Of a stretch of 47,138 bases of DNA, positions 4,350 to 35,189 are shown piece after piece. The number at the start of each line of letters is the position of its first letter. The first letter of the stretch is position 1. Made by a program: the position numbers and the translations under genes. Under the pieces are notes generated by a model. It was not told the origin of the DNA and did not search any database. It saw only the letters and a list, made by a program, of their open reading frames with translations. This DNA is from Candidatus Cybelea tumulisoli (lineage in GTDB: Bacteria > Vulcanimicrobiota > Vulcanimicrobiia > Vulcanimicrobiales > Vulcanimicrobiaceae), in the NCBI GenBank assembly GCA_003167155.1, contig PMTY01000175.1, forward strand, positions 1 through 47,138. The letters are read 5' to 3'.

Positions 4350-4417
4350 CTTGGCCGAGCCGTATTCGAATTTTGCAAGGGTAAGGCCTTTGGCGTGAAC
4401 GAACGAATCGCGCACTC

Positions 4418-5599: not shown

Positions 5600-5612
5600 A
5601 AGATTTTCGCCG

Positions 5613-7333: not shown

Positions 7334-7337
7334 CCAG

Positions 7338-8690: not shown

Positions 8691-9306
8691 GGGGCAGGCT
8701 TTCGAAGGCGAAGGCGCTGGGGCGCTCGTCGGCCGCATAGCATTGCGCGCAGCGGTCGATTAGGCGCTCCGGATCGGCGTCCTCGAGTATCAGCGCGCCG
8801 GTTTGTTTGCGAAAGAGCGCTGCAATCTCGCTGTAGCTGTCGGACAAGCCGCCCGAGTTCCTTAGGACCCCGATGAGCTTACCCTCGTCGTAGGCGATGC
8901 AAAACTCGCCGAGCGTTCCGGTGCGGCCGCCGACGAAGATCACGAAATCGGAGCTGTGGATGTTATAAACCTCGCGCCCCATCAGCCCCGATCCGGTGAA
9001 GACCATCGCTGTATAGGGATTGAGCGGAGACTCGTACAGCCCGACGTGCTCTTCCCGAGAGTGCGCGGGCGAAACGCCCAGACTCTTGCCCCCCTCCGCG
9101 TGGGCTCCGAGAACCGCGGCATGAGGAAGCCCCGGACACGCACCCGTGACGATCAACGCTCCGCGGCGCGCGATGCACGCGCCCACGCGCCGCGCCAGCT
9201 CGCACTCTTGGTCGGTAATTACGCCGCCGGCGGATCCCATGACGCCGATCTGGAGTTTCACGGCAGACTCAGTGCTGCGCGAGCGCTCGGAAGCCTCTTT
9301 AGGCAA
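8683..9306 (-). CDS. LOG/TIGR00725-like Rossmann protein
   Basis: Up to 207 aa. Nucleotide-binding fold of the lysine-decarboxylase-like (LOG/SLOG) superfamily: GVMGSAGG at the N-terminus, ALIVTGACPGLPHAA, and VGGRTGTLGEF, which corresponds to the PGGxGTxxE signature with a leading Val instead of Pro. Relatives bind or cleave nucleotides, for example release of cytokinin base from its riboside monophosphate; the substrate here is unknown. The ORF starts at TTG 9306; a GTG at 9261 just before KLQIGVMGS may be the true start. It forms a two-gene operon with the beta-CASP hydrolase. Confidence 0.75.
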   Translation of the reverse strand: MPKEASERSRSTESAVKLQIGVMGSAGGVITDQECELARRVGACIARRGALIVTGACPGLPHAAVLGAHAEGGKSLGVSPAHSREEHVGLYESPLNPYTAMVFTGSGLMGREVYNIHSSDFVIFVGGRTGTLGEFCIAYDEGKLIGVLRNSGGLSDSYSEIAALFRKQTGALILEDADPERLIDRCAQCYAADERPSAFAFESLPRD

Positions 9307-9380
9307 TGGGCCGCGCAGCTGAGCCGAGGCTTCGAGCGGACTGCCCCGAACTACCCCGGTCGCGAATCCGTTCGGACTTC

Positions 9381-9393
9381 AGGAGACGCAATT
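9381..9393 (+). promoter_or_regulatory. Shine-Dalgarno deciding an ATT start
   Basis: AGGAGA (9381-9386) is followed by CGCA and then ATT (9391-9393). This is the only good ribosome site in front of the signal peptide of the lipoprotein gene, and the spacing is normal. It favours initiation at ATT, a start codon known from infC, or marks a one-base change from ATG. Confidence 0.45.
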
Positions 9394-10431
9394 ACCATTT
9401 CACGTTCGGGCCGCTTTGCACTATGGAGCTGCGTGGCGGCGGCATTGCTCGCAGGGTGCGGCGCGTCGCAGTCCGTCGGCGGACCGGGCACGATGCCACA
9501 AACCTCTGCCATCCGAACCCACGCCGATCGCGGCAAGTCGTGGATGTCACCAGATACGCCAAACATAAAAAAACTGCTGTATGTGTCGGATGCGGCTACC
9601 GACGATGTGTTCGTGTATAACTATGACTCCGGAGAGGAAGTTGGGAAACTCACGGGCTTCGATGACCCGGGGGCTCAGTGCGTCGACAAAATGGGCAACG
9701 TCTATATAGCGACCGAGTCCGGATTAAACATCTACAGCCACGCCGGGCACTTCATCGGTATTGAGGGCTACGGACCCATGACGGGCTGCGCCTTCAGCCG
9801 CAAACAGTCCGGGGTCAACTACCCCTACCAAGGTGGTCCAGGCGTTATCTGCATTCCACATCCAAGGAGAAAGATGACGTTGTGCAACTATGACGAGGCC
9901 GCCTGCTATACGATGTGGCCGGGCGGCTTCGACTCCGACGGCCCCTACGTTGTAGAAGGCGAGACCGACGGTGTCGTTTCAATATGCGCAACTGGGGGTG
10001 GGCACCAGTCGATAAAGGCTGCATTGGGGGAGGACGCGTTAGCTGTGCTCTCGTTCAACGGGACGATCTACGCACCGGGCTCGGTAATGTGGGACGGCAA
10101 GTACCTCGCGCTGACGGATCAAGAGGCTGGCGGCGCCTACCAAACCGGTATCTATCAAGCGACGCTATCCCGCGCGACGCTGACGTCGCAAGGTGAAACG
10201 ATCCTTAGCGATCCGTGCGACTCGGGTCTCACCGACGTCATCCAGCCCTTTATCGTCGGCGCCAAAAATACTCCGAACACCAAGATGCAAGGAACGGTCG
10301 TGGTCGGCGGTAACGCGTTTTGCCCGGGAACGTTCGACTACTGGAAGTATCCCGCCGGCGGCGACCCGATCAAGACGCTGCCCTCAGCACCGCAAGAGCC
10401 TGTGGGTCAGTCCGTCAGCATCGCTCCGTAG
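9391..10431 (+). CDS. SWM-PD propeller lipoprotein, paralog A, probable ATT start
   Basis: About 346 aa. The frame contains a complete lipoprotein signal (SGRFALWSCVAAALLAGC) but no ATG, GTG or TTG close before it; the nearest in-frame canonical start (a TTG near 9211) lies inside the opposite-strand LOG gene. AGGAGA at 9381-9386 sits 5 nt before an ATT at 9391, which I take as the start. The mature part has an SWMSPD motif, LLYVSDAATDDVFVYNY, WDGKYLALTD and a C-terminal YPAGGDP, all shared with the proteins at 19993 and 22722. The pattern fits an NHL/SMP-30-like beta-propeller on the outer face of a membrane. Function unknown. Confidence 0.7.
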   Translation: MTISRSGRFALWSCVAAALLAGCGASQSVGGPGTMPQTSAIRTHADRGKSWMSPDTPNIKKLLYVSDAATDDVFVYNYDSGEEVGKLTGFDDPGAQCVDKMGNVYIATESGLNIYSHAGHFIGIEGYGPMTGCAFSRKQSGVNYPYQGGPGVICIPHPRRKMTLCNYDEAACYTMWPGGFDSDGPYVVEGETDGVVSICATGGGHQSIKAALGEDALAVLSFNGTIYAPGSVMWDGKYLALTDQEAGGAYQTGIYQATLSRATLTSQGETILSDPCDSGLTDVIQPFIVGAKNTPNTKMQGTVVVGGNAFCPGTFDYWKYPAGGDPIKTLPSAPQEPVGQSVSIAP

Positions 10432-10462
10432 CTCCCCCAAACCGTAACGGCGCCGTCCATAG

Positions 10463-11299
10463 TTAGGGAGTCACCGCAAACACCGTCCCTTGCGAAGGAT
10501 TGCCGCCGCCTTGGGTGGTGCCGTAAAGCGTGCCGTTGACATCCACAACGACGTCCTTCGGTTGTTCACCGTCGGCTTCGGTGAAGCTGTGGAGTACGCT
10601 TTCCGCTCCGGATGCCTCGATCGCGAAGACGGCTCCCAGGCCGTTGATGCCGCCTTCCGCCGTCGTGCCGTAAAAGGTACCGCGAGCGTAGGTCAAGCCG
10701 GCTTGCGGATCGCTGGCGTCGCCTGATGCTCCGAACTGGTGAAGCACGGTTATGCTCCCGGAGGGGGTCATCTTAAAGACGGATCCGGCACCGCGCGATC
10801 CGGCATTGCTCGACGTTGTCCCGTAGAGTTCACCCTTAACGGCCACGAGGCTCCCAAGCGGATATGCGCCGTCCGAACCGCCGGTAAAGCTATACAGCGC
10901 GCTTTCCCTGCCCGACGAAGTGACTTTGAATACCGTTCCGTAACCGTCCGTGCCACCGTTTTCCGTCGTGCCGTAAAGCGCGCCTTTGAAGCGAATTAGG
11001 CCCGCCACGAGGGTTGCGCCGTCGGGGTTATTTTGGAAACGCCGGATCCGCTGCACCCCGTACCGCCGGTCGAAGTCGTGCCGTAGAGCGTGCCATTCAC
11101 GTCGATCAGGCCTGCCTCCGGGATCGAACCGTCGGGTGCGCCTTGAAAACTGTAGATGGACGCAAAGCTCACCGAATTACGCACGGGCATGCGTTGCGCG
11201 TCACCGTTGGCCCCCCGAACTCACCGGCACGGTGCCGGCAGCGCCGCTCGAACAACCGGCGAGCAGCGCGCAACACAAGTGCAGATAGTAGCTTCGCAT
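10463..11299 (-). pseudogene. GloVer-repeat lipoprotein, broken by two lesions
   Basis: Reading from ATG 11299 (preceded by GGAGGA at 11303-11308), the product begins with a lipoprotein signal (LCCALLAGCSSG) and stops at TGA 11203-11201 just after a six-G run at 11216-11211. A one-base change in that run would join it to the next frame (11190-10996), which carries SFQGAPDGS and LYGTTSTGG. That frame ends after GVSKITP, and homology resumes in a third frame (to 10463) at FQNNPDGATL, then continues through four more YGTT-type units to GTVFAVTP. The intact relative at 14381 has seven such units; five remain here. The second lesion looks like an internal out-of-frame deletion. Assembly error is the alternative. 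Confidence 0.75.
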
Positions 11300-11441
11300 G
11301 ACTCCTCCTTATCGACATGACGCGCGGCAGACCTCGACGGTTAGCGTGAGCCCCGGCAGCGACGTGCGCAGAGGTATGATCCTGTCAACAGAATGCGCTT
11401 GCTCCAGGCCCGCGTCTAAGCGTGGAAACACGACTTTGCTT
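11300..11441. other. Intergenic region between LuxR-type gene and GloVer pseudogene
   Basis: 142 bp. It contains the Shine-Dalgarno of the GloVer pseudogene next to its start; the rest lies downstream of the LuxR-type gene on the same strand. I see no convincing promoter, terminator or small gene. Confidence 0.4.
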
Positions 11442-14174
11442 TCACGTGCGCCCCAGGAGCCGTCCGAGTTGCAAGCGCGAGCGTAAGTTCAGTTTCTCGA
11501 GAGCCGACGAGACGTGCTTTTCGACGGTTCGCGGACTGATGTGCAGGATCGCCGCGACCTCGTCGTTCGAATGACCCGACGCGACGAGTTGTCCGACCTC
11601 GCGTTCCCGCGGCGAGAGGACGGCGATGGTGGCGTCGGAGCGGCCCACTTCCATGCGCCGAAGATCGCGCAGCGCAGCGATGGCCTGGTACGTTTCGAGC
11701 GCGCGCTTGGGTTCGCCGCCGAGCTCGTAGGCGCGCGCGGCCAGCCACGGCCAACCGATGGCTTCAAATGCCGCCGCGGCGCAAAGCGCACTCGCCTGCG
11801 CGTCGCCGTCGCCCAGGCCGCGTTGGGCCGCGAAGGCGTCGAAAAGACCGAGCGCGGCCTTATTGACACGGTCTTGCGGATTCGACGCCGCTTCGAAAAG
11901 CAGACGACGCAACGCAACGACGTCGCTGCGGTCTCCGAATTGCGCCGCGGCGAGAAATGCAAACAGAAAGCGGTGCGGTCCCGGCAACACCTTGGCGATG
12001 CGGCGAATCCAAGCGGCAGCGTCGTCGACCTCGCCGCGCAGGCCGAGTGCCCAGGCATAGGGTCCGCCGAGCACTCCGATTGCCAGCTTCATACCGCGCT
12101 CCACAACGTATTGCAGAAACGACTCGGCATCGTCGCGGCGCAGCCGCGCGTCGTCGCCGGCGCAGATGCCGAGTGCGAAGTTGGCGCTCTTGACATGCAC
12201 CAGCAGCGCGTAGCGCTGTTCTGACGCAATACTGGCCGTTCCCAGAAGCGTTGCCGCGGTCGCAAAATCGCCCCGCAGCGTGTGTTCGAACGCCGAAGCC
12301 GCGTACGCCAGCGATCGGCTCCCGAAGTCTCGCTCGCGTTCGACGGAAATTCCCGTGCGCAAGTGATCGCGTGCGCGTTGCACCTCGCCCAGCGCAATCG
12401 CATCGAGGGCGATCTGACAGTGCGTCTGGCAAAGCCGGTTTCCGTCGTCGGCAACCCGTCCGGCTTCTTCGAGAGCGCGTCGAGCGTAGATCTGCCAGCC
12501 TTCGAGATCGCCGCGCATCGCCGCGACCTTGAATCGCGCTTGATGTGCGAAGGTCGCGGTTACCGGGTCGGCGATCGGTTCGTCCATTTCGTTCACGAGC
12601 TCCAGCGCGGACTCGAAGTCCAGCGCGGCGAGGTAGTCGAAGGCCACACGCGCCCGCAACAGGTCGACGGTCGCGCCGGAGAGCTTCGAGCCGAGCGTGT
12701 CGATCGTTCGGCGGCCGAGATCCATCGCGGCCGCAGTATCGCCGGCGTTGTATAGTTGGTCGGCGAGCGCCGATGCATTTCTTGCAATACCCTCGAGATC
12801 GCCGGCCTTGGAGTACAGCTCGCCGGCGCGCCGAAGCCGCTCGATGCCGGCACTTAAGCGGAAGAGAGCACCGAGTGAAACCCCGATCTTGTGTTCGAGG
12901 CCGGCGACGCCGGCACCATCGGCTTTACGTTCCGGTAGCGCGCGCTCGTAATACGAGACCGCGTCGGCCATCGCGCCAATCGCGAACGCCCGATCGCCCG
13001 CAAGCTCGGCATACGTGGCGGCTCGTTTCGTGTCGCCGGCACGCAACCAATGATGAGCCAACTCCACGCTGACGGCGTTGCGGTCGGGACGCCGTTCCAG
13101 CTCGAGGCCGATCGCTTCGTGCAGCGGACGCACGCGCTCCGCGAGCAACTCTCCGTACAACACCTCCTGCGTGAGCGCGTGCCGAAAGGCCAGCTCGCCG
13201 GGCGTGCTCCGCCGTTCGTAGACGAGATGGAGCGCTTGCGCGCGCTCGAGCGCAAGCAGCACGTCCTCTCGCGAGCCGTCGAAGAGCGCCACCAGACGTT
13301 CGATCTGGAAGCGTTCGCCAAGGACGGCGGCCAGCGACAATATCTTCCGCTGCGCGTCAGAGAGCAGCGCGGCCCGCGCTAAGACGGCGCCCCGAATCGA
13401 GAGCGGCAGTTGTTGGTGCGAGTCGCTCGGGCTTCGCTCGAGGACGCTCTTGAGTAGCTCTTCGGCAAAGAATGGATTGCCTTGGCTGCGCCGCACGATA
13501 TCGGCGACGGTCGCGGCATCGAGAGCGTCTGGATGCGGGAGTTCAAGCTGGATCAAGGCCTGCGTAGCACGCTCGTCGAGCGGCCCGAGCGTTACCTGCG
13601 ATATCGATTCTTTCGCCAGCAGCCCGGCAAAATCGCCCAGGCGCGAATGGTCTGCATCTACTTCGTCGCAGCGATACGTCGCGACGACGAGCATGCGCCG
13701 CGACGCGATACGATCCGACAGGTAGGTAAGGAAGCTGAGCGTCGAACGATCCGCCCAGTGCACGTCCTCTATCAGAAGGACGACGGTGCCCCGCTGCGCG
13801 TGCCGCGCAAACGCGGCATCGATGGATTCCAACAGCCAGCTCGCCGGCTGCGCGGGCATCCCCTCGGCACCGCGTTCAAACGAAAGCCGCTCGAGCAACG
13901 CCCGTGCTCCCGCATCGCGCGCCAGGGAACTATTGCGCTCGATCTGCTTGAGCAGCTCGCGGAGCGGACCGAGTGGCGTTTGGATGAACTCGACGCAGCG
14001 AGTGGAGGCGGAGACGGCACGGCCACCGTCCACGCTCTGCTCGAACTGGCGCAGTAGACTGGACTTGCCGACGCCGGCTTCGCCCGAGATCAGTACGATG
14101 CGCCCGCGGCCGGCGGCCGCTTTGCGGCGGTACCCCGCGAGAAGGCTCGTCTCGCGTTCGCGAGCCACGAGCAC
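11442..14174 (-). CDS. LuxR-family regulator with N-terminal AAA ATPase (LAL/MalT type)
   Basis: 910 aa from a GTG at 14174. N-terminal ATPase with Walker A SGEAGVGKSSLL (about residues 30-42) and Walker B LLIEDVHWADRS (about 150). A long helical, TPR-like middle follows, then a C-terminal LuxR helix-turn-helix (LSPREREVGQLVASGHSNDEVA and ISPRTVEKHVSSAL). Such large ATP-binding regulators are signal-dependent transcription activators in the cytoplasm. It is divergent from the intact GloVer gene, with 206 bp between the two starts, and the broken GloVer gene follows on the same strand, so control of GloVer genes is plausible but not shown. Confidence 0.92.
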   Translation of the reverse strand: MLVARERETSLLAGYRRKAAAGRGRIVLISGEAGVGKSSLLRQFEQSVDGGRAVSASTRCVEFIQTPLGPLRELLKQIERNSSLARDAGARALLERLSFERGAEGMPAQPASWLLESIDAAFARHAQRGTVVLLIEDVHWADRSTLSFLTYLSDRIASRRMLVVATYRCDEVDADHSRLGDFAGLLAKESISQVTLGPLDERATQALIQLELPHPDALDAATVADIVRRSQGNPFFAEELLKSVLERSPSDSHQQLPLSIRGAVLARAALLSDAQRKILSLAAVLGERFQIERLVALFDGSREDVLLALERAQALHLVYERRSTPGELAFRHALTQEVLYGELLAERVRPLHEAIGLELERRPDRNAVSVELAHHWLRAGDTKRAATYAELAGDRAFAIGAMADAVSYYERALPERKADGAGVAGLEHKIGVSLGALFRLSAGIERLRRAGELYSKAGDLEGIARNASALADQLYNAGDTAAAMDLGRRTIDTLGSKLSGATVDLLRARVAFDYLAALDFESALELVNEMDEPIADPVTATFAHQARFKVAAMRGDLEGWQIYARRALEEAGRVADDGNRLCQTHCQIALDAIALGEVQRARDHLRTGISVERERDFGSRSLAYAASAFEHTLRGDFATAATLLGTASIASEQRYALLVHVKSANFALGICAGDDARLRRDDAESFLQYVVERGMKLAIGVLGGPYAWALGLRGEVDDAAAWIRRIAKVLPGPHRFLFAFLAAAQFGDRSDVVALRRLLFEAASNPQDRVNKAALGLFDAFAAQRGLGDGDAQASALCAAAAFEAIGWPWLAARAYELGGEPKRALETYQAIAALRDLRRMEVGRSDATIAVLSPREREVGQLVASGHSNDEVAAILHISPRTVEKHVSSALEKLNLRSRLQLGRLLGRT

Positions 14175-14380
14175 ACCGGGGATGTCTGCGGTCAGCGCTT
14201 TGAGATCGTACGACAGAAGGAAGCCCTACTCTGGAAAGAATGGGCTGGCGTAATTCCCCGCGCTACCCGGCCGAACCCCCGATAAAGTGGTGTTTTCCCG
14301 CATATGCGTCGCGTCGGACCTGGGGCATCCTTAGCCTGAGGGGCGTGAATGGCGCCTCATCTTGCGTGAAGGAGCTAACC
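14175..14380. other. Divergent promoter region between LuxR-type regulator and GloVer lipoprotein
   Basis: 206 bp between two divergent starts. Apart from the ribosome site for the GloVer gene I could not identify a convincing -35/-10 pair or an inverted repeat. Both promoters should lie here. Confidence 0.4.
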
Positions 14381-15598
14381 ATGCCCGAATTTCTACCGAT
14401 TTCATCCGCTCGCAAAAGCAGCGGCCTGCTGCTGCTCTTGTGCTCGGCGCTCATCGCGGGTTGCGCCCAGGGGGGCGCCGGCAGCATCCCGCCGACTGCC
14501 GCGAACGTCGGCTCGGCGATCGGAGCTAAGCGACACACTCAGCCGAACTGCCCAACCGCCTACAACTTCAAAGGCTACCCCGACGGCTCTCGACCTGAAG
14601 CGGCCCTCTTCAACCTCAACGGCACGCTCTACGGCACAACGGCCACGGGCGGTAGCAGTTACCTCGGCATGGTCTATACGACCAGCGGGGGCTCCGTGAG
14701 CGTGGTCCACAGTTTCACTGGAACACCGGACGGCTCGAGCCCGTACGCCGGATTGATCGCCGTTGGAAACGCGCTCTACGGCACGACTATCCACGGCGGT
14801 GCGCACGGGGACGGGGCCGTCTTCAAGATCTCAAAAGCCGGGAAACTCAGCATCATCTACAGTTTTAACGGCACTCCAGACGGCGCAGAGCCCGCTGCCG
14901 GACTGATTAACGACGGCGGGACGCTCTACGGCACGACGCCCATCGGTGGGACGACGGGCAACGGAACGGTGTTCTCCGTCACGACGTCCGGCGTTGAAAA
15001 GGTGGTCTACAGCTTTGCAAATGGGTCGGACGGGGCGGGCCCAATAGCGAACCTGGTTCGCTTCAGAGGCGCGCTCTACGGCACGACGCAAGGTGGCGGC
15101 ACGGACGGTTACGGAACCGTCTTCAAGGTGACTACGTCAGGGCAGGAAAGCGTGGTTCACAGCTTTGCCGGTTCCCCCGATGGCGCTTCGCCGACTGCCG
15201 GATTGATTAATGTTAGCGGCGCGCTCTACGGCACCACGCCCAACGGCGGAGCGGTCCGCTCTGCTGCAGGGGGAACGTTCTTCAAGATCACTGCCGCAGG
15301 GAAGGAAACCGTGCTTTACAGCTTTGGAACGGCCGGCGACGCCGAAAATCCGAACGCGGACTTGCTCGACGTCAAAGGCACACTTTACGGCACGTCGACC
15401 ATGGGTGGCCAAGTCGGCATTGGAACGGTCTTCTCCATCACGACCTCCGGCTCAGAATCCGTACTCTGCTCCTGGGCCTCGGAGACCGGCGGCGAGGAAC
15501 CGATGGCGGGTGTCACCGATGTTGGTGGTACGCTCTACGGCACCACCCAGGCCGGCGGCACGGAGAACCAGGGAACGGTTTTCGCCGTGCCATTGTGA
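14381..15598 (+). CDS. GloVer-repeat lipoprotein (Gloeo/Verruco repeat), intact
   Basis: About 405 aa. Start chosen at ATG 14381, preceded by AAGGAG at 14369-14374; the signal peptide ends in lipobox LIAGC. The mature protein is built of seven units of about 50 residues, each with a YSF-x-G-DG-x-P segment, a LYGT-T-x-x-GG motif and GTVF-x-I-T-x-SG. The LYGT motif appears seven times (TATGG, TIHGG, TPIGG, TQGGG, TPNGG, STMGG, TQAGG). This is the 'choice-of-anchor tandem repeat GloVer' family of unknown function. Seven repeats suggest a seven-bladed beta-propeller (inference). Confidence 0.88.
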   Translation: MPEFLPISSARKSSGLLLLLCSALIAGCAQGGAGSIPPTAANVGSAIGAKRHTQPNCPTAYNFKGYPDGSRPEAALFNLNGTLYGTTATGGSSYLGMVYTTSGGSVSVVHSFTGTPDGSSPYAGLIAVGNALYGTTIHGGAHGDGAVFKISKAGKLSIIYSFNGTPDGAEPAAGLINDGGTLYGTTPIGGTTGNGTVFSVTTSGVEKVVYSFANGSDGAGPIANLVRFRGALYGTTQGGGTDGYGTVFKVTTSGQESVVHSFAGSPDGASPTAGLINVSGALYGTTPNGGAVRSAAGGTFFKITAAGKETVLYSFGTAGDAENPNADLLDVKGTLYGTSTMGGQVGIGTVFSITTSGSESVLCSWASETGGEEPMAGVTDVGGTLYGTTQAGGTENQGTVFAVPL

Positions 15599-15830
15599 TT
15601 AGCGGATAATCCGGGTTTTCCATCCGTACAGGGCGGCGGAGCGTTTAATAAGTATGCGACTCATGGTCTTTGGCGTTCTGCTGTTCGTGGCCGTCGGGAT
15701 GGTTCAACTGGTGCAAAGTTTGCCCGGGGGAGAACGCGGTCTGCTCCTATTTGAAAGGGCTTGCCCCGTTCACAGCAGTTCAAAATAGCCCGCGTAGGAT
15801 TGCGGACCAACGTCTGGGTATAGGTCCGCC
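15599..15830. other. Intergenic region with a possible 44-codon ORF (15654-15788, plus)
   Basis: 232 bp between the GloVer gene and the glycosidase. An ATG at 15654 opens a 44-codon frame ending in TAG at 15788; its first 20 residues are hydrophobic (LMVFGVLLFVAVGMVQLV), so a small membrane protein is possible. The only upstream GGAG is about 12 nt away, too far for a good ribosome site, so I do not call it as a gene. No terminator is obvious. Confidence 0.3.
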
Positions 15831-18368
15831 ATGCATGCGCTCTCCGGCGCGCAAGGCTTGGCGGGACGCCCAACCTTGCCCACATTTCGACTGACCGATT
15901 CCGAACTTGGTATGGGCGCGAGTTTAGGGAACAGCGCGATTTGGATCAATACCAAAAGCACGGGCGCGGTGGAGCGCGTCTTCTCGAACGCGTTGGCGCA
16001 GAGCTTGATCGGCACGATCTCGGTGCGGTATGGCGGTTATGGGCTGTCGCCGGGCCTGCTTGGGGATCTTGCCGGCTCGTCGAGGTCACGTTACATCGCG
16101 CTCCGCCCGGACGCCGGGCATCTAAACTTCGAAATTCACCCCGCGTACCAACGGGTTTCATTTACGCTTGGCGGTGTCGTAGACATCAGTGAAACCACAT
16201 TTGTCCCTCTGGAGGCCACGGCGTCGGCCGACGGCGACGCGCCGATGGCATACATCGTCGTTCGTCTGCGCAATACCGACGCCGTCGACCATTGCATTCG
16301 GGTCGCCGGCGCCGCCCGTTTGCGCGGCAGCATGACGCCCGACGTGCAGTCGCGTTTTGACGTAACCCGCCAGGCGCTGGTAGCGTGGAACGTTTCGCAG
16401 CCGCAAGCGGTTCGTATGTTCGGCCTTTCGGAACCGTCCTCACGCTTTGCGACCACATTCGATTTTGGCAGAGTCTATGACCCGAAGCACGTCCATGCCC
16501 TCGACAATGAAATTGTGGGCGTTGGCGACATCCTGGGGCAGTTGCAGCTCGACCTCGCGCTGGAGCCCGGCGAGCAGCGCACGATTTGTTTCACGGCCGG
16601 AGCGTTCGCGGAGGGTGAAGAGCGTGCGCTGGAATCATTTGCAGCGGCGCCGGGACACCAGACGGCACTCGCACGAACGATCGAAGCCTTGGAGGAGGTA
16701 CTGTGCCGCAGCCAAGTGCTTACGCCGGATTCGCTGATCAATCAGGCCGCGCTTTGGAGCAAAGTCAACATGCGTCGCGTGATGGCCAAGTACCCTCAAG
16801 GCCCCGCGTTTAGTAACGATCCTGGAAACTATGCAAATGTGGTCGGTCGAGACAGCGCCTGGTTCGTCTATGGTTGCGACCACTTCATGCCGGAGTTTTC
16901 GCGTAAGCTGCTCGAAGACTTCGCAGCGCGTCAGTACGCCAGCGGCAAGCTGCCGGAATACTATGATGCCGTAACCGGTCGGGTGGAGGACGATGGCTTG
17001 AACATCAACGACGACACGCCGTTGTATATCCTCGCGGTCAATCATCATTTTCGCTCCACCGGCGACGCGGCGTGGCTGAAGGAAGTGTATCCCAAAGTTG
17101 CCGCTGCGGCACGGTATATCGTCGCTCAGATCGACGACCGCGGGCTCGTCTTTTGCTCGGCGAACGATCCGCGCGGAAACGTTTGGTCGATTGCCGGCTG
17201 GCGTAACATTATCGAGTTGTATAGCATCAACGGAGCGGTCACCGAGATCAACGCCGAATGCGTCGCCGCACTTCGGGCAGTTGCCCATCTGGCGGATAAT
17301 CTTGGCCGGCCGGAGGCTGAAGAGCAAGAGTTCGCCGGCGCGGCGCAACGTCTTCAATCGGCCATGGATAAATATCTGATCAACCCCGATAACGGCTTGT
17401 ACTACTTAAACATCGACGTCGACGGAAACGTGCACACCGATGTAACCGGCGATGAGATCTTCCCGGTGATCTTTCGCGCCTGCGATGACGAGACGGGCTT
17501 TCGCATCATAAGCCGGCTGAACGCGCCCGACTTTTGGACGGCAGCCGGGCTTCGAACGGTTTCGCGCAACGACCCACTTTACGATCCGTCGCACTACGCG
17601 GGACTGATGGGCGGGGTGTGGCCGGGATTGACATGGTGGTATGCGTTCGCAGCGGCGCGTTACCATCCGGAGTTCATGGTGCGAGCCTTGCGGTCGTCAT
17701 TCGAGCACTACGCTGCCGATCCCAAGAAAAATAACACCGTTCCGGGCCAGTTCAGCGAATGGTTCGACGGTGAAAGCTTAACAAACAGAGGGATGCGGCT
17801 CTCGCCGTGGGAGCCGCCCCGGTTTTTCTGGGCGGCGATCGAGGGCGTCTGCGGCCTTATGCTTACCCCCGGTGAACCGCAAATCAACCCGCTGATCCCA
17901 GGGCACTGGTCGTGGGTCGGCATTCGGCGGTTACGCTACCATGGCGGGTCGCTCTCGTACTTTGCCGTGCGGCAAAGCGGCGGCCGGCCAGCCATCTACT
18001 CGACCGCCCCGATCAAGAGCGATTACGAAGTTTCCCTTTTTGACTGCGACGTCTCCGAGCGTCTCCGTGTGTTCTCGGACTCCGCCGTCGTCATCGCGCT
18101 CGCGAGCGAAAAGCGAACCGTGATTCTCCTGGGAAATACCGAGCCGAACACGGTTTCGATTCCGATCAACGTCAGCGACGTCGTCGATCTATCGCGGACC
18201 TACACGTTACGTCTCTACAACAGCGAAAGGCGCGATTGGGACGCGCCGGTGATGCGCGGCGGGGAAGAGCTGACGGGCCTTGCGGTGCTGATCGAGACCA
18301 ACGGATTCCGCATAATCGAACTTACCGCCGGTGGCGCGGGAACTGGACGCGACGCCGCGCCGAAATAA
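15831..18368 (+). CDS. Six-hairpin (alpha/alpha-6) glycosidase-like protein, GH94/GH63/debranching-enzyme type
   Basis: 845 aa, no signal peptide visible. The N-terminal ~270 residues look like a beta-sandwich domain. The central part carries features of (alpha/alpha)6-barrel glycosidases: GRDSAWFVYGCDHF, ASGKLPEYY, INDDTPLYILAVNHHF, a conserved GGVWPGLTWWYAFA and a late WEPPRFFWAAIEG. A C-terminal beta-domain follows. Relatives hydrolyse or phosphorolyse alpha-glucans or disaccharides. I cannot assign the exact GH family or catalytic acids by eye. It stands alone: GloVer gene upstream, convergent TetR gene 10 bp downstream. Confidence 0.75.
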   Translation: MHALSGAQGLAGRPTLPTFRLTDSELGMGASLGNSAIWINTKSTGAVERVFSNALAQSLIGTISVRYGGYGLSPGLLGDLAGSSRSRYIALRPDAGHLNFEIHPAYQRVSFTLGGVVDISETTFVPLEATASADGDAPMAYIVVRLRNTDAVDHCIRVAGAARLRGSMTPDVQSRFDVTRQALVAWNVSQPQAVRMFGLSEPSSRFATTFDFGRVYDPKHVHALDNEIVGVGDILGQLQLDLALEPGEQRTICFTAGAFAEGEERALESFAAAPGHQTALARTIEALEEVLCRSQVLTPDSLINQAALWSKVNMRRVMAKYPQGPAFSNDPGNYANVVGRDSAWFVYGCDHFMPEFSRKLLEDFAARQYASGKLPEYYDAVTGRVEDDGLNINDDTPLYILAVNHHFRSTGDAAWLKEVYPKVAAAARYIVAQIDDRGLVFCSANDPRGNVWSIAGWRNIIELYSINGAVTEINAECVAALRAVAHLADNLGRPEAEEQEFAGAAQRLQSAMDKYLINPDNGLYYLNIDVDGNVHTDVTGDEIFPVIFRACDDETGFRIISRLNAPDFWTAAGLRTVSRNDPLYDPSHYAGLMGGVWPGLTWWYAFAAARYHPEFMVRALRSSFEHYAADPKKNNTVPGQFSEWFDGESLTNRGMRLSPWEPPRFFWAAIEGVCGLMLTPGEPQINPLIPGHWSWVGIRRLRYHGGSLSYFAVRQSGGRPAIYSTAPIKSDYEVSLFDCDVSERLRVFSDSAVVIALASEKRTVILLGNTEPNTVSIPINVSDVVDLSRTYTLRLYNSERRDWDAPVMRGGEELTGLAVLIETNGFRIIELTAGGAGTGRDAAPK

Positions 18369-18378
18369 ACTGCGGAAC

Positions 18379-18945
18379 TCACTTGGCTGCGGTCACTGCC
18401 TTCAGTTCGTTGAGCGAATCTCTGATGACTTCCCCGAGTTCTCGATGCTCGGACTCGTCGATCCAGCGTTCGAACGCGACTCTGAAGACGGCGATTCCAG
18501 CCTCGCCGGCCAGGATCGCAGTCGAGGCGGCGACGCCGCGTCGACGCAGCCCGTCCGCGAGTGCGCGAGCAAGTGAGGCGAGCTTGATGCGTTCGCGCTC
18601 TTGGAGCTCGGCGTTGGCCGTGATGATCGCTTGGCGTCGCCGGGCGTAATCCCGCCGCTGGCCAAGCAGCGCGGCAGCCGCTTCTAGCGCTTCGCCTACC
18701 GCGTCGATTGCCGACAAGGAAACGGGCGCGCTGTCCAGTGCGGCGGCGATTTGATCTTGCAATCCGACGGCGCCCGAGAACAGGACCTCGCGCTTGTCGG
18801 CAAAGTGGCGAAAGAACGTTCGCTCGGTAAGCCCTGCCCGCTCGGCGATCTCCGCCACCGTGACCGCTTGGAAGCCGCGCTGCCCATATAGTTCCAGCGC
18901 CGCCTCCGCGAGGCGAGTACGCGCGTCGGGCTGCCATCGACCCAT
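18379..18945 (-). CDS. TetR/AcrR-family transcriptional regulator
   Basis: 188 aa from ATG 18945; the frame extends to 19011 but would then run into the operator region. The N-terminal helix-turn-helix is typical ([20 protein letters not shown] followed by [12 protein letters not shown]), with a helical ligand-binding C-terminus. It is divergent from an SDR/epimerase gene, and the 85 bp between them hold three copies of a 9-bp half-site, so autoregulation and control of the SDR gene are very likely. The inducing ligand is unknown. Confidence 0.92.
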
Positions 18946-25139: not shown

Positions 25140-25781
25140 ATGATCAGAAAACACATGGCCGCCGCGCTCGCGCTCGCCGCGCTCGTGGTCGTCGCCTGTA
25201 GCGGTCACGTCGGGAGCAGCAACGTTATGCCGGGCACCACCGTGAGGCTGCCGGGAATCGGTAAAGACCTCGTGATGTACGCCACGATGCCGAAAGACGC
25301 TATCGGCGAGGAACTAGGGAGCGAGGGGCTGGGAACGGTCGACTCGGCCGAATGGAAGACAGATTTGAGCGGATTTACCCAGGAGCAACGTTCGCAGTCG
25401 CTCGCCTTTCCGCCGGGCACGAAGATCACCATCCACAATCTTTCGAAGAGCGTGACGCACACGCTAGACGTGGTGAAAGTGATCACCAAGCCGCCGGCGG
25501 TCTTTCCCAAGGGCGTAACGCTTTCGAAATCGCCGAAGGGCGACGGCAAGCTCGAGGCCGGCTATGCCAGCGGCGAGATCAAGCCGGGCCATTCGGTGAC
25601 CGTCACGCTGGTGAAAGAAGGCATGTACCTGATCGGCTGCGCCTTCCACTACGGCCAAGGGATGCACGACGTACTGGTGGTCAGCAAGACCGCCAAGCCC
25701 GGGCCGCAAGCGACGGCTCCCAGGGCGACGGCGACGCCGACGTGGGGATCGGGCAGCGGAGGCGGATGGGGCGGCCCGTAA
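25140..25781 (+). CDS. Cupredoxin-like lipoprotein, copy 1
   Basis: 213 aa from ATG 25140 (GAGGA at 25131). Lipobox VVVAC. The mature domain has the type-1 copper ligand pattern: His in SVTHTLDVVKV and then Cys, His and Met in IGCAFHYGQGM. This matches plastocyanin/amicyanin-type folds, so it likely carries electrons or binds copper outside the cytoplasm. The C-terminus is a Pro/Thr/Gly linker. The protein at 34554 is a close paralog with the same ligands and the same IGEEL and GDGKLEAGYASG segments. Confidence 0.88.
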   Translation: MIRKHMAAALALAALVVVACSGHVGSSNVMPGTTVRLPGIGKDLVMYATMPKDAIGEELGSEGLGTVDSAEWKTDLSGFTQEQRSQSLAFPPGTKITIHNLSKSVTHTLDVVKVITKPPAVFPKGVTLSKSPKGDGKLEAGYASGEIKPGHSVTVTLVKEGMYLIGCAFHYGQGMHDVLVVSKTAKPGPQATAPRATATPTWGSGSGGGWGGP

Positions 25782-29349: not shown

Positions 29350-29901
29350 ATGGTTAGCAGCGTTGTCGAGCGCCCGCCGCGCGCGGACCCGCGCGTAACG
29401 CGAACCCGCAAGCTGATCCGCGACTCGCTCATCTCTCTCCTCGCGGAAAAGAGCTTCGAATCGATCAGCGTGCAAGACATCGCCGAGCGGGCGACGATCA
29501 ACCGCGCAACCTTCTACGCGCACTTTACCGACAAGTTTGCGTTGCTCGACGCGCTGATTCGTGAAGACGTGGCCGCCCGTCTCTCGGAAGGCGATCCGCT
29601 GAGCGTCTCCAACACGCGCGCGATGCTGCTGGCGGTCGGCAAGAATGTCTTCGCCTTCGTGGGCTCGCACCGGAAGTGCCGAGTCGACCGCGATTTCGAG
29701 CCGCAGTTCCAGCGCACCATCGAAGGGGAGCTGACCGATTTTCTGTCACGGGACTTCGGACATTGCTCGGCGATGCTCATCGCTTCGGCGCTCGTCGGCG
29801 CGGCGATGAACTGGCGGCATCAGGCGCCGAAATCGCCGTCGGAACCGATCGTTACGAACATCGTTGAAATCCTCGTCGACGGTGTCAAGGGAAAAAGCTA
29901 G
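29350..29901 (+). CDS. TetR/AcrR-family transcriptional regulator
   Basis: 183 aa, with a GAGGGAG ribosome site. The N-terminal helix-turn-helix reads FESISVQDIAERATINRATF then YAHFTDKFALLDALI, typical of TetR. It is divergent from the YceI gene, so it probably represses the YceI-SDR-epimerase-aminotransferase run and itself. The 3' end overlaps the convergent DsbA/FrnE-like gene by 17 bp. Confidence 0.92.
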   Translation: MVSSVVERPPRADPRVTRTRKLIRDSLISLLAEKSFESISVQDIAERATINRATFYAHFTDKFALLDALIREDVAARLSEGDPLSVSNTRAMLLAVGKNVFAFVGSHRKCRVDRDFEPQFQRTIEGELTDFLSRDFGHCSAMLIASALVGAAMNWRHQAPKSPSEPIVTNIVEILVDGVKGKS

Positions 29902-30499
29902 CGTGGCTGTTTCGAAGTAGAATCACGAGCTCGGCCGCCGGCATCATTCCAACGATCGCGCGCCGATGCGGCCACGCCATGGCCGGGACGCCGGTGGCGC
30001 CGGCCACGCGGGCCTCTTCGATGAACGCGTCGACTGTGGGAGAAAACCGGCGATCTCGCCACGCGGCTTCCACGTCTGAAGCGGAGATGCCGAAGCGTTG
30101 TGCGATCGGGACGATGACCTCGCGTTTCGAGATATCGGCTCGTTGTGCGAAGAATGCTCGCGAAACGAGGTGATAAAAGGCGCCCGCTTTGTCGTCGCCC
30201 TTTTGAGCGCGCACGACTTCGGCCGTCTCGAGCGCGAAACGGGAGTTGACGTTACGCTGCGGCGGATCGATGGGAAGCCCGACTTCGCGCGCTAGATGTT
30301 CGAGCCTCGCCCGAACCTGCGGCCAGTCCTCGGGCGGAAACGGCTTCGGTGCGCCTTCGGGCGGCGTATCCGGATGGATCTCAAAGGGAAGCCAACGCAG
30401 GTCACCTTGCAGTTCTCTCGCAGCCTCTTCGGCCCAGACCGAGCCGAGATAGCAAAACGGTCAAATAACGTCGGCCCAGATGTTGATGATACGACTCAT
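29885..30499 (-). CDS. DsbA/FrnE-like thiol-disulfide oxidoreductase, probable selenoprotein (TGA at codon 13)
   Basis: 204 codons from ATG 30499. The frame is open throughout except for one TGA at 30463-30461. Around it the translation reads IINIWADVI-[TGA]-PFCYLGS; FrnE/2-hydroxychromene-2-carboxylate isomerase-type DsbA proteins have DV(I/V)CPWCY there, so the TGA replaces the N-terminal, nucleophilic Cys of the CPxC motif. After it the family pattern is intact: LRWLPFEIHPDTPPEG, NSRFALETAEVVRAQ, FYHLVSRAFFAQ, DISKREV, GVPAM. A SECIS-like hairpin follows the TGA at bacterial spacing. The gene ends in its own TGA without such a hairpin. I infer Sec13-x-x-Cys16 and a cytoplasmic redox role (no signal peptide). 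It follows the DUF427 gene by 3 bp. Alternative: a nonsense mutation or sequencing error. Confidence 0.7.
30426..30463 (-). promoter_or_regulatory. In-frame TGA and bacterial-type SECIS-like hairpin with GGUCU loop
   Basis: On the minus strand the TGA (30463-30461) is followed after 11 nt by the arm UCUCGGCUC (30449-30441), loop GGUCU (30440-30436) and arm GGGCCGAAGA (30435-30426). Nine pairs form, one of them U-G, with a single bulged A at 30428. The loop begins 20 nt after the TGA. In E. coli fdhF the SelB-binding loop is also GGUCU at about 18 nt (from memory). The hairpin lies inside the coding region, as bacterial SECIS elements do. Confidence 0.6.
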
Positions 30500-30502
30500 A
30501 TA

Positions 30503-30892
30503 TTAGGCGACTCCGTTGCTGGAGGGCGTTTCTTCGATCGAGTCCACCCGATCGGGATAGAAGGCCAGGTACTCTTTGATTTCGGCAACGGCGTCGTACG
30601 GCGCCTCGTAGGTCCACGCCGCGTTTTTGCTGCGACCGCCGCCGGCTGTGACGCTGTAATACGCAGCGTCGCCCTTGTACGGGCAGTAGCTTTGGTTGTC
30701 GCTTCGCTCCAGCTGCGACATATCCACGTCGTCGCGCGGGACGTACTGGACGGGCGGATAGTCGCTCTCTCGCAGGGTTAAGGCGCGCGTCGTGTCGGCG
30801 ACAACGCGTCCGTTGACGGTGACCCGAAGGCGCGAGCGGCTACGCTCGATAGTAATGGGATGTTCCGAGTTCGGGATTTTAACGGTTTTCAT
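30503..30892 (-). CDS. DUF427 domain-containing protein
   Basis: 129 aa. DUF427 signatures: VVADTTRALTLRES, PPVQYVPRDDVDM, SYCPYKGDAAYYSV and AAWTYEAPYDAV. The family folds as a small beta-barrel/tent-like domain of unknown biochemical function, often annotated as a nucleotidyltransferase-like protein. GGAGGAG lies about 11 nt before the ATG. The stop is 3 bp before the start of the DsbA/FrnE-like gene, so the two form an operon. Confidence 0.92.
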   Translation of the reverse strand: MKTVKIPNSEHPITIERSRSRLRVTVNGRVVADTTRALTLRESDYPPVQYVPRDDVDMSQLERSDNQSYCPYKGDAAYYSVTAGGGRSKNAAWTYEAPYDAVAEIKEYLAFYPDRVDSIEETPSSNGVA

Positions 30893-32094: not shown

Positions 32095-33303
32095 TTAGTA
32101 AGAGAACTCCTGGAGTTGGTCTACCTGCGGCCCATTCACCCAACCGGTCCGTGATGTGGGGTTGATGGAGATGCGCACCGGAATGACGGTACTGGCGTCG
32201 GAGAAGCTGAAGCCATTGATGGACTCTTCGAGGGTTCCGCTCTCGTTATAAACCTGGATGCTGCTGCCCGAACCCGTGGTCGAGACGGGCTGGGCAACGA
32301 GAAAGAGTCCGTTGACCGCGTCGTTGGCAACAAAGGCACCTGAAGAGAGTTGGCTGGCGTTGTTAGGCAGCTGCACGCGAGTGCCCGTTTCCTTGGCCAC
32401 GTTGTAGAACTCCACTCCGGCGTCGAGCTCGGTGGTCGTGCACGCAATGCCGGTTCTCGAGTCGTAGCCGATGCCGTTGGCGTAGCCGCACCCGACCGAC
32501 CCCGGACAGCTGACGCCTGAGAAATGCGTCTTCTTGCCGGACTTGAGATCGATCGTCCAGATGACCGGCGGCGGTCCGCCGGCCGCGCCGAAACTCGGCG
32601 AAGTCGCCATGACGGCGAGATTGTTGACGGTATCCTCCGCAAGCTGCGGCTGCGTACCGAGTGCGAAGTCGGTCTCGTTTAAGCCGATGACTTTACCGAA
32701 CGTATTCTTACCGACGTCGGAGACGATGAGGTCCAACGGATCGGATCCTTCGCGCTGGTACCCAAAGACCACGCTCGTCTCCGTACTTTGATTGGGCGCC
32801 CACTCGAGCACGTTAAAGAGTTTAAGCGGTGGAATCCACCTGCCGTTGAGGCGGTTCTTCGTTACCGGATTCAAGAGGTGGTACATGTCTTTTGTCGGCG
32901 TCTGGCCAGGTATCCCCGCCTTTTGAAAATCCACCAGCCCAACGTCGCCGGCGAAGATGCCGTCGGCAACGTAATCGTCACCTTTCACAACCTTCTTCCC
33001 GCTAATCGAGCCGATGGTTTTTGTGATCGAACCTGTCTTTTCGTCGAACGTCTGCACGGAGATTTCACCGGTTAGGGCCGAAGCGAGGAGGCCGTCGTTG
33101 CCGTTTGAGTTGATGTCAAAGCCGAAAATCTGGCCATGGTCGGAGGTCGTCAGCACGGGGCCGAGTGAGCCGCCGTCGCGGACGGCCGTGAAATGGGTGA
33201 GATGCGTGGCCGGAGTAACTCCTCCGGCCGTCGTCGTCCCGGCGCATGCGCAAAGCGCAAGCAGTACGAGACAAGAGCTTGTTGATATCAATGAGCGATT
33301 CAT
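32095..33303 (-). CDS. Tandem paralogous lipoprotein, copy 2, probable beta-propeller
   Basis: 402 aa. Lipobox LCAC. Shares with its upstream neighbour at 33340 the segments GQIFGFDI-x-x-NG-DG-LA, a GDVGLV block, LAEDTVNNLAVMATSP, ACTTTELDAGVEFYN, a VNGLFLV block and a C-terminal QLQEFSY. The regular repeats suggest a propeller, outside the cytoplasm. No enzyme motif is visible. It starts 36 bp after its paralog and is the third gene of an operon headed by the cupredoxin at 35189. Confidence 0.82.
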   Translation of the reverse strand: MNRSLISTSSCLVLLALCACAGTTTAGGVTPATHLTHFTAVRDGGSLGPVLTTSDHGQIFGFDINSNGNDGLLASALTGEISVQTFDEKTGSITKTIGSISGKKVVKGDDYVADGIFAGDVGLVDFQKAGIPGQTPTKDMYHLLNPVTKNRLNGRWIPPLKLFNVLEWAPNQSTETSVVFGYQREGSDPLDLIVSDVGKNTFGKVIGLNETDFALGTQPQLAEDTVNNLAVMATSPSFGAAGGPPPVIWTIDLKSGKKTHFSGVSCPGSVGCGYANGIGYDSRTGIACTTTELDAGVEFYNVAKETGTRVQLPNNASQLSSGAFVANDAVNGLFLVAQPVSTTGSGSSIQVYNESGTLEESINGFSFSDASTVIPVRISINPTSRTGWVNGPQVDQLQEFSY

Positions 33304-33339: not shown

Positions 33340-34530
33340 CTAGTAAAAGAACTGCTGAAGTTGGTTGAAGCCCGGGCCGAAGGCCCAGCCCATGCGTTTG
33401 GCGGGATTGATCGCCGGCGCGGGCTCTCCGAGCGCAAACTTGAACCCGGTAATCGTCTCGACCAGATTACCTTTTTCGTCGTAGACGACGATTGCGCTGC
33501 CCTGGCTGCCACTGCAATAGGACGGATCGGTCACCAAGAACAACCCGTTCACCGGATCGTTAGCGATGCCGGCGCCGCTGTTCCCCTGGGACGTGTCGCC
33601 GGTGCAGGGAAGCTGTGCGGCCACGCCCGTCTGCTGTGCGAGGTCGTAAAACTCGACCTGGGCGTTGAGCTCGGTCGTAGTGGCCGCAATGCCCGTGCTC
33701 GAATCGACGGCTAAGCCGTTGACGAAGCCCGCACCAAATTCCCCGTTGTTTAAGCCGGTGAACTGCGTCTGCTTGCCGGTCTGGAGATTGACGAGTACGT
33801 TGATCGGCGCGGTGCCCTGGACACGCCCTCCGTCGGGAGAGGTTGCGATGACCGCTTCGTTTGTCGCCGTATCTTGCGCGACTTGCGGCAGATTCCCCAC
33901 CCCAAACGTGCGCGGATTGAGATGGAACACCTTGCCGAACTCGTTCTTAGCGACGTTCGACTCAAACAGGTCGGGAATATCGTTCTTCTCGAGCTCGATC
34001 GCGAAGATGGCCGTCATGCCGGTTGTTTGATTTGGACCGGCCGCCTCGACCTCGATGTCTTTGATGGGCGGCGTCCATTTGCCGGTGAACTTACCCTTGA
34101 CTGGATCCATCAGATCGTAGAAACGCTTGGCGAAGGGCGACCCCTTCGGCATGACCTCGCGGGTGACGAGACCGACGTCGCCGGTAACGATTGCATCAAA
34201 AACATAGGACGTTCCGCTCTGAGGCGACTTCGGGAACGTCTTGCGAATCGCTCCGCTGTCCTGGTCGAACGTCTCCACGTTGGTGGACGTGGCGAGCGCG
34301 CCGTCGCCGCCGTTGCGGTCGATATCGAACCCGAAGATCTGCCCGGCGTTGCTCGAGAGGATCTTTCCGAGCCCCACCGTCTGGCGTGTCGCTCGCAACG
34401 CCGGCTGCGATGTCGACCGCAACGGGGTCAGCGGCGGCGCCGAAGCGCCGCTGCTGCAACCCGCTATGATCAGTGCCGCCGCGCAGGCGTAGAGTAGTTT
34501 CGTCGTTCGAGCACCTTGGGGACTTTGCAT
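33340..34530 (-). CDS. Tandem paralogous lipoprotein, copy 1, probable beta-propeller
   Basis: 396 aa from ATG 34530, with GGAGG 5 nt upstream; the frame reaches 34563 but would then overlap the cupredoxin stop. Lipobox IIAGC. Conserved segments with the next gene: GQIFGFDIDRNGGDG, VTGDVGLV, VAQDTATNEAVIATSPDGG, AATTTELNAQVEFYDL, DPVNGLFLVTDP and the terminal NQLQQFFY. The two genes are clearly a tandem duplication. Function unknown; surface exposure and a link with the upstream copper protein are inferences from the operon. Confidence 0.84.
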   Translation of the reverse strand: MQSPQGARTTKLLYACAAALIIAGCSSGASAPPLTPLRSTSQPALRATRQTVGLGKILSSNAGQIFGFDIDRNGGDGALATSTNVETFDQDSGAIRKTFPKSPQSGTSYVFDAIVTGDVGLVTREVMPKGSPFAKRFYDLMDPVKGKFTGKWTPPIKDIEVEAAGPNQTTGMTAIFAIELEKNDIPDLFESNVAKNEFGKVFHLNPRTFGVGNLPQVAQDTATNEAVIATSPDGGRVQGTAPINVLVNLQTGKQTQFTGLNNGEFGAGFVNGLAVDSSTGIAATTTELNAQVEFYDLAQQTGVAAQLPCTGDTSQGNSGAGIANDPVNGLFLVTDPSYCSGSQGSAIVVYDEKGNLVETITGFKFALGEPAPAINPAKRMGWAFGPGFNQLQQFFY

Positions 34531-34553
34531 GGAGGCCTCCGTAGAGAGAGTGT

Positions 34554-35189
34554 TTAGTGCCACGGAGTCGGGGTTGCCTTGGGACTTGGTGGTGTCGCTT
34601 GCGGCCCAGGCTTCGCGCCGTCTTTAACAACGAGCACGTCGCGCATGCCTTCGCCATAGTGGAAGGCGCAGCCGATCTCGTAAGTGCCGGCTTTCACTAG
34701 CGTTACGGTGACAGATTTGCCGGGGCTAATCGGGCCGCTCGCATAACCGGCTTCGAGTTTGCCGTCGCCTTTTGCCGGTATCGAGAGGTTCGGGTTCGAC
34801 GGAAAGACGGCCGGTGGTCCGGAGATCACTTTGACCACGTCGAGCGTGTGCGTGATGCTCGAGGATAAGTTGTGAATCGTGATCTTGGTCCCGGGAGGGA
34901 ACGCGAGCGACTGCGTGCGCTGCGTTTGCGTGAATCCGCCCAGCGTCGCCTTCCAAACCGACGACTTAATCGATCCGACGCCTTCTTCGGGGAGTTCTTC
35001 GCCGATGCTGTCTTTTGGAAGGGTAGCGGTCATTGCCAAATCCGAGTCGACAGCGGGAAGGGAGTACGTGGTGCCATTCATTGGTGCGGTGTTGCCGGCG
35101 CCGACGCTGCCCGCTCCGCACGCAGCGAGCGCGAGAGCGACAAACGTAACAGCGAGGGCACTGAATTTCTTGGAACTAAATTTAGACAT
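34554..35189 (-). CDS. Cupredoxin-like lipoprotein, copy 2
   Basis: 211 aa, GAGGATTC just before the ATG. Lipobox LAAC. Type-1 copper ligands are present: His in SITHTLDVVKV and Cys/His/Met in IGCAFHYGEGM. It is closely similar to the protein at 25140 over the whole domain (IGEEL, TQSLAFPPGTKITIHNL, GDGKLEAGYASG). It is probably an extracytoplasmic electron carrier or copper-binding protein, and the first gene of the operon continuing through the two tandem lipoproteins at 34530-32095. Confidence 0.88.
   Translation of the reverse strand: MSKFSSKKFSALAVTFVALALAACGAGSVGAGNTAPMNGTTYSLPAVDSDLAMTATLPKDSIGEELPEEGVGSIKSSVWKATLGGFTQTQRTQSLAFPPGTKITIHNLSSSITHTLDVVKVISGPPAVFPSNPNLSIPAKGDGKLEAGYASGPISPGKSVTVTLVKAGTYEIGCAFHYGEGMRDVLVVKDGAKPGPQATPPSPKATPTPWH

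Follow-up and report, generated by a model that had tools for sequence, protein, structure and literature searches.

We identified in the window, by which we mean the whole 47,138-nucleotide stretch of DNA that was analyzed, a gene that very probably encodes a DsbA-family, FrnE-like oxidoreductase with selenocysteine (Sec) at residue 13 (UPxC), made by SelB/SECIS recoding of an in-frame TGA. We favor this reading because the TGA is conserved among orthologs, the nearest homologs without TGA carry Cys at the same position, the second cysteine is kept, a SECIS-like hairpin follows, and the Sec machinery is present in relatives. An earlier interpretation, made from the DNA alone (the sequence-only reading), had proposed a selenoprotein with Sec in place of the first active-site Cys, and the comparative tests on the gene support that proposal. 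The window is contig C86 of genome G000, whose assembly comprises 3.7 Mb in 201 contigs and is 91.65% complete.

An in-frame TGA at the active site of a DsbA-family gene

Coordinates of the gene and the other features are collected in Table 1. Read with TGA as U, the minus-strand frame spans 204 codons, and its sole internal stop is the TGA at codon 13, which falls at the first Cys position of the DsbA-family CPxC motif. The translation of 29885–30499 (−) is MSRIINIWADVI-U-PFCYLGSVW...ASFFP-stop, with Cys or Sec only at positions 13 and 16 of the 204-residue protein. This retranslation confirmed the frame and the retained Cys16 as the sequence-only reading had given them. That reading had also held that TGA is otherwise a normal stop here, which is borne out: TGA is the gene’s own stop and, in a mechanical count of the window that covers both strands and includes non-genes, the terminator of 16 out of 40 stop-to-stop frames of at least 250 codons. 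Because of these terminators, we rejected a general reassignment of UGA. Its further expectation, that gene callers would overlook the true start and begin at a GTG, holds for the mechanical ORF listing of the window, which reports only a 109-aa piece from GTG 30214 for this gene; for gene callers it is plausible.

Co-transcription of the gene with the DUF427 gene that precedes it in the window is possible; no DUF427 gene was seen directly upstream of the other 13 orthologs described below. For each genome, at most four ORFs, picked mechanically, entered a by-eye comparison of neighborhoods, in which no gene neighbor common to all 14 orthologs was seen. Neighbors were shared only between close relatives, as with a large ORF upstream of the gene in both G003 and G010; G010 also has a DUF427-like ORF ~1.1 kb downstream. 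In two genomes of one genus, the gene lies within ~3 kb of an EF-Tu-like match (G061:C67 and G062:C25), and in G062 an ORF that resembles ribosomal protein L3 by eye follows. Elsewhere in the window, two pairs of secreted- or lipoprotein-like ORFs appear by eye to be paralogs: 32095–33303 and 33340–34563 (−; 402 and 407 aa), and 25140–25781 (+) and 34554–35189 (−; 213 and 211 aa). Pfam was silent on one member of the latter pair and gave a sub-cut-off Copper-bind match for the other.

Table 1. Coordinates of the gene, its predicted elements and neighbors in the window, and of the reference genes in G003
Feature	Sequence	Position	Strand	Basis
Predicted gene for a Sec-containing DsbA/FrnE-like oxidoreductase, 204 residues with U13	Window	29885..30499	−	ATG at 30499, TGA stop 29887–29885, PF01323 86.8 bits, orthologs
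In-frame TGA at codon 13, predicted to encode Sec as the first residue of UPFC	Window	30461..30463	−	TGA in 14/14 close orthologs; TGC/TGT in 9 readable of 10 distant
Codon 16 TGC, retained second Cys of UPxC, proposed resolving Cys	Window	30452..30454	−	TGC 13, TGT 1 among 14
Val171-Pro172	Window	29984..29989	−	Invariant in 17 aligned homologs
Predicted SECIS-like hairpin	Window	30421..30455	−	Outer helix columns 9–13/39–43; inner 7-bp stem columns 17–23/29–35 (window 30447–30429)
Apical loop GGUCU, begins 20 nt after UGA	Window	30436..30440	−	13/14 GGUCU; AGUUU in G014 only
DUF427 (PF04248) gene, 3 bases upstream, same strand	Window	30503..30892	−	ORF listing and Pfam
TetR-type regulator, convergent, overlaps the gene’s last 17 bases	Window	29350..29901	+	ORF listing and Pfam
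G003 gyrA	L055	5675–8179		1088 bits
G003 selA	L055	8550–9899		518 bits
G003 selB	L068	2425–4524		301 bits

Conservation of the TGA codon across the phylum

To place the gene in its phylum, we compared it with 149 genomes of Eremiobacterota/WPS-2-like bacteria, counting matches at E up to 1e-10. The query protein of the Pfam, NCBIfam, contig and plasmid searches, and of a separate genome search that gave the weaker matches described below, carried one extra terminal C in place of the final TGA. Matches were found in 24 genomes, 14 of them close (51–100% identity) and 10 distant (25–42% identity). Alignment at codon 13, the check that the sequence-only reading had suggested, gave TGA at the same column in all 14 close orthologs, and TGC or TGT in the nine distant matches that reach the active site (CPWC; CPFC in G143), in agreement with its claim that the codon stands where homologs have the first Cys of CPxC. 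The tenth distant match (G036) lies at a contig end and comprises only a C-terminal fragment; lacking the active site, it is uninformative. Outside this count lie six weaker matches with E from 2e-6 to 8e-4 (G097, the second match of G050, G054, G069, G072 and G077), which read CPYC in G097 and STYS in the other five, one of which (G072) has an internal TAA; none has TGA. Among the 149 genomes, no close ortholog with Cys at codon 13 was seen. In-frame TAG codons in the G014 and G024 matches proved to be the gene’s own end, beyond which the match had run.

The orthologs come from two families and six genera and include assemblies of few contigs: G014 (9), G022 (4) and G127 (7). Over the frame, dN is 0.073 and dS 0.35 against G003, and 0.249 and 1.47 against G022; the nine codons before the TGA show zero non-synonymous differences from G003 or G010. 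By these substitution rates, the frame is under purifying selection. Together with the conservation of TGA in all 14 orthologs, the rates exclude, on comparative grounds, sequencing error as the explanation for the family, and they argue strongly against pseudogene status.

The distribution of the gene is patchy, with 14 of the 149 genomes and 4 of the 18 genomes of the window’s genus carrying it. In a tree built from 17 proteins, resolution near the base is weak and one Cys row (G143) sits on a long branch, so the tree does not distinguish loss from transfer. A wider contig scan returned two loci, 89% identical, which are the orthologs of G003 and G010 and thus no independent evidence, and a plasmid collection returned 143 records, all below 60% identity (24–30% in the 15 matches listed).

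A SECIS-like hairpin downstream of the TGA

The DNA directly 3′ of the TGA is near-invariant in the 14 orthologs. We scanned their codon alignment with RNAalifold in 185 windows of 39 nt, dropping windows with more than 10% gaps. The best consensus energy of the 185, −15.26 kcal/mol, belongs to the window starting at codon +2, and each of the eight top-ranked windows overlaps the hairpin. Every one of the 14 sequences can form all seven inner-stem pairs; when both helices are counted, 98.2% of the 168 pair cells are paired, versus 22–54% with slid partners. One pair shows a compensatory change (C-G to U-A, in G133), and another is GC in seven sequences and GU in seven. At fully conserved residues, same-codon identity is 0.74 in codons +1 to +12 (8 columns) versus 0.55 elsewhere (48 columns; permutation p 0.014), a difference that is partly expected, codon usage and residue composition alone predicting 0.49 versus 0.44. 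At the same place in the Cys homologs, 3–7 of the seven inner pairs are possible, and the consensus fold of the nine Cys homologs there has an energy of −7.2.

Bacterial SECIS elements are described as stem-loops that follow the UGA directly and carry a G in a small apical loop (PMC1088965), and the hairpin after codon 13 fits this description. Other measures do not make it stand out: its covariation was equaled by 61 of 500 shuffles, the 62-nt fold of the single sequence does not exceed shuffles in stability (z 0.30), and by mean single-sequence energy, windows at codons +149 to +156 are more stable (down to −18.47 versus −16.25). In codons +1 to +12, dS against G014 is 0.89, above the 0.58 found further downstream, with only 7.7 sites, and an Rfam scan of 30300–30560 returned 0 matches. 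Because position, loop and conservation agree while shuffles and single folds do not stand out, we consider that the hairpin resembles a SECIS element, mainly on the strength of its conserved sequence and with slight covariation support.

Protein family and predicted fold

The window protein matches the Pfam DSBA family (PF01323) with 86.8 bits against a gathering cut-off of 25.6, over residues 5–185 and thus spanning the TGA, and all 14 orthologs match PF01323 at E up to 0.001. Among the NCBIfam models, none came near its cut-off, and the protein is therefore filed as DsbA-like (PF01323) rather than as FrnE, although it would work like FrnE. Inspection by eye shows no signal peptide, and the protein is probably cytoplasmic.

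Thioredoxin-fold proteins have a CxxC motif opening helix 1 and a conserved Val-Pro before a strand. An AlphaFold model built from the 14-sequence alignment, with U13 as Cys (pLDDT 84.7, pTM 0.84), has this layout: strand 3–9, residue 13, helix 14–29, V171-P172, and then strand 173–175. Val171-Pro172 presumably occupies the place of the thioredoxin-fold cis-Pro. Among PDB folds, the best are FrnE of Deinococcus radiodurans and Streptomyces coelicolor SCO1869, followed by others that include HCCA-isomerase-like and kappa-GST proteins.

D. radiodurans FrnE (DR_0659; PDB 5cnw, 5co3, 5coh, 5cp1, 5xwh) is both the best PDB sequence match (E 2e-6) and the best fold by E-value (TM 0.80), and it shares with the window protein the DsbA fold and the place of its CP(W/F)C motif. 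It differs in having Cys instead of Sec, and identity over the fold alignment is ~21%. FrnE proteins are described as predicted cytoplasmic DsbA-family thiol oxidoreductases; those of Deinococcus carry CP(W/F)C, and many FrnE proteins, though not all, also have a C-terminal CXXXXC, which in D. radiodurans FrnE is described as serving regeneration (PMC8945050). The window protein lacks this second motif, so its regeneration would differ from that of FrnE. SCO1869 (3gl5) and the HCCA isomerase-like 3fz5 have the same fold (TM 0.84 and, for 3fz5_B, 0.79) with weak sequence similarity, at ~20–22% identity.

Selenocysteine machinery in the host and its relatives

The sequence-only reading had further held that the host makes Sec, tying this to a search of the genome for selA, selB, selD and tRNA-Sec and counting a lack of SelB or tRNA-Sec against it. 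That search gave a divided answer in G000: selD is present (380 bits), and selA, selB and tRNA-Sec were not found in the genome as assembled. Taken literally, the assembly thus shows the lack that was to count against Sec synthesis; selD, together with selA, selB and tRNA-Sec in relatives, speaks for it, and we read the lack as a gap in the assembly, on grounds set out below. Weaker matches were rejected. All six selB matches in G000 fall below the cut-off of 242: the best (191 bits) is an EF-Tu of 399 residues, next to a gene resembling EF-G, both named by eye, another lies in a TypA-like gene on contig C174, and the rest score 67 bits or less. The seven tRNA-Sec matches, none above 39 bits, proved to be ordinary tRNAs with the specificities Trp, Gly, Ser (2), Leu, Tyr and Pro.

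Among 98 relatives, a set that includes G000 and holds 8 of the 14 genomes with the TGA gene, selA is over its cut-off in 80, including seven of those eight (all except G000). Because of this breadth, Sec use looks, from gene content, like a general trait of the phylum. tRNA-Sec exceeds its gathering score in 70 of the 98 and scores above 60 bits in 65; among the eight, six exceed 60 bits, and it is missing in G000 and G010 (68% complete). ARAGORN called tRNA-SeC(tca) in the five relative loci checked that had a strong match (L047, L050, L069, L070 and L071). Over all 14 TGA-gene genomes, selB is above cut-off in nine and not in G000, G010, G024, G128 and G134, which are draft assemblies of 68–99% completeness. 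It directly follows selA in G022, G061 and G062; in G024, selA lies at C243:19-1386 on the minus strand, and the place of selB beyond it would fall off the contig.

Two genomes of the window’s genus, G003 and G014, contain selA, selB and tRNA-Sec. On contig C23 of G003, gyrA, selA and selB lie within ~17 kb, and a tRNA-SeC follows ~17 kb further along, at 250016. About 1.3 kb upstream of this selB, L068:1063-1104 (G003:C23 ~230063–230104) is a dispersed short repeat of ~25–42 bases, which matches 18 places on many G000 contigs at 90–100% identity.

DNA comparison found no match in G000 to the gyrA-selA stretch of G003 among the 40 of 217 first-look candidates scored. A profile search likewise did not find gyrA in G000; the same search was positive in 12 of 14 control genomes. 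The gene is essential in bacteria. From its base 1, contig C174 of G000 matches G003 at 89% (40 of 222 first-look candidates scored); the match starts at G003:C23:240146, which is ~6.6 kb past selB and within an open frame. Because gyrA, the neighbor of selA in G003, is missing as well, and C174 begins in mid-frame shortly past the place of selB, the simplest reading of the missing selA and selB is an unassembled stretch, as judged from synteny with G003. The missing tRNA-Sec is an absence separate from that of the gyrA-selA-selB stretch: the matches of C174 to G003 stop at 246799, short of the tRNA-Sec place, and ARAGORN found no tRNA in the C174 pieces examined. In the same contig, two N bases (G000:C174:19848-19849) lie in the TypA-like GTPase gene, whose frame is apparently broken, which suggests a scaffolded contig. 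Furthermore, ~14 kb (G000:C174 ~4273–18529) lies between two points whose G003 counterparts almost adjoin (C23:244059 and 244065); either G000 has an insertion here relative to G003, or G003 has lost the stretch.

Alternative explanations and proposed mechanism

The machinery missing from G000, with selD remaining, would also fit a history in which the selenoprotein family is real and this genome has lost SelA, SelB and tRNA-Sec, its own copy being a dead or truncated relic. We consider this very unlikely, given that the absence extends to the essential gyrA adjoining selA in G003, that C174 starts at a point syntenic to ~6.6 kb past selB, that the same-genus genomes G003 and G014 have all three components, and that the G000 copy itself has an intact TGA and hairpin and evolves under purifying selection. 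Another view would make the TGA a sequencing error or an inactivating TGC-to-TGA mutation of an ordinary CPFC DsbA gene, the two codons being one base apart and the assembly fragmented; with the same TGA in all 14 orthologs, which span two families and include few-contig assemblies, this is barely credible.

UGA 13 might also be read through in another way, with a near-cognate Trp or Cys rather than Sec, and the five TGA-gene genomes without selB over cut-off could be taken to point in that direction. These five are drafts, however; selB adjoins selA in three other genomes, and in G024 the corresponding place would fall off the contig. The Cys codons of the nearest non-TGA homologs, the SECIS-like hairpin and the wide occurrence of selA also speak against such readthrough, which we regard as extremely improbable.

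We therefore return to Sec insertion as the preferred reading. SelA would make Sec-tRNA(Sec) with selenophosphate supplied by SelD, and SelB, held by the hairpin that closely follows the UGA, would deliver it so that codon 13 is read as Sec. The predicted product is a 204-residue thiol-disulfide oxidoreductase, probably cytoplasmic, with a fold closest to FrnE and the active site U13-P-F-C16. The selenolate of U13 may be the nucleophile that attacks the substrate, a disulfide, peroxide or comparable electrophile, and the intermediate would then be resolved by C16.

Relation to known selenoproteins and implications

Sec-containing DsbA-like proteins had been reported from metagenomes, as the sequence-only reading stated: nine Sargasso Sea sequences with UXXC are given under COG2761 (PMC1088965), and the GOS survey gives 63 sequences as DsbA 1 (PMC2398784). 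A 2006 survey lists such proteins in Anaeromyxobacter, Desulfovibrio and Desulfotomaculum (PMC1794560), PF01323 has a row among the selenoproteins of PMC9312934, and Table 1 of a 2026 paper includes a ‘DsbA-like protein form 1’ (PF01323, UxxC), with Asgard archaea among the holders of Sec-DsbA-like proteins (PMC13188914). As described in PMC1088965 and PMC13188914, form 1 has the features of the window protein, namely the Pfam domain, UxxC with Sec for the first Cys, and a G-loop hairpin after the UGA. Its published members, from marine metagenomes, Anaeromyxobacter, Desulfovibrio, Desulfotomaculum and Asgard archaea, are compared with the window clade here by description only. Because Sec-containing PF01323 proteins with UxxC are already published, we regard the window protein as of a known kind and not a new type; no description of it was found in this phylum. 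In the open-access literature, we found no report of a selenoprotein from Eremiobacterota/WPS-2 (for WPS-2 with selenium, by title among the matches listed), and none on point by title that links selenoproteins with FrnE.

Eremiobacterota/WPS-2 are largely known from soil metagenomes. To this phylum, our analysis adds a well-supported selenoprotein and the occurrence of selA in 80 of 98 genomes, and it shows that ORF callers can truncate such genes. We see the evidence as evenly balanced on whether the 14 orthologs, with TGA in every one and Cys in none, spread over six genera and sharing neighbors only among close relatives, form a Sec-only FrnE/DsbA branch in Eremiobacterota, one that would supply this soil phylum, in which selA is widespread, with a cytoplasmic redox enzyme dependent on selenium. 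With such a Sec-only pattern, the benefit of Sec to an FrnE-like enzyme becomes testable through a Sec/Cys pair.
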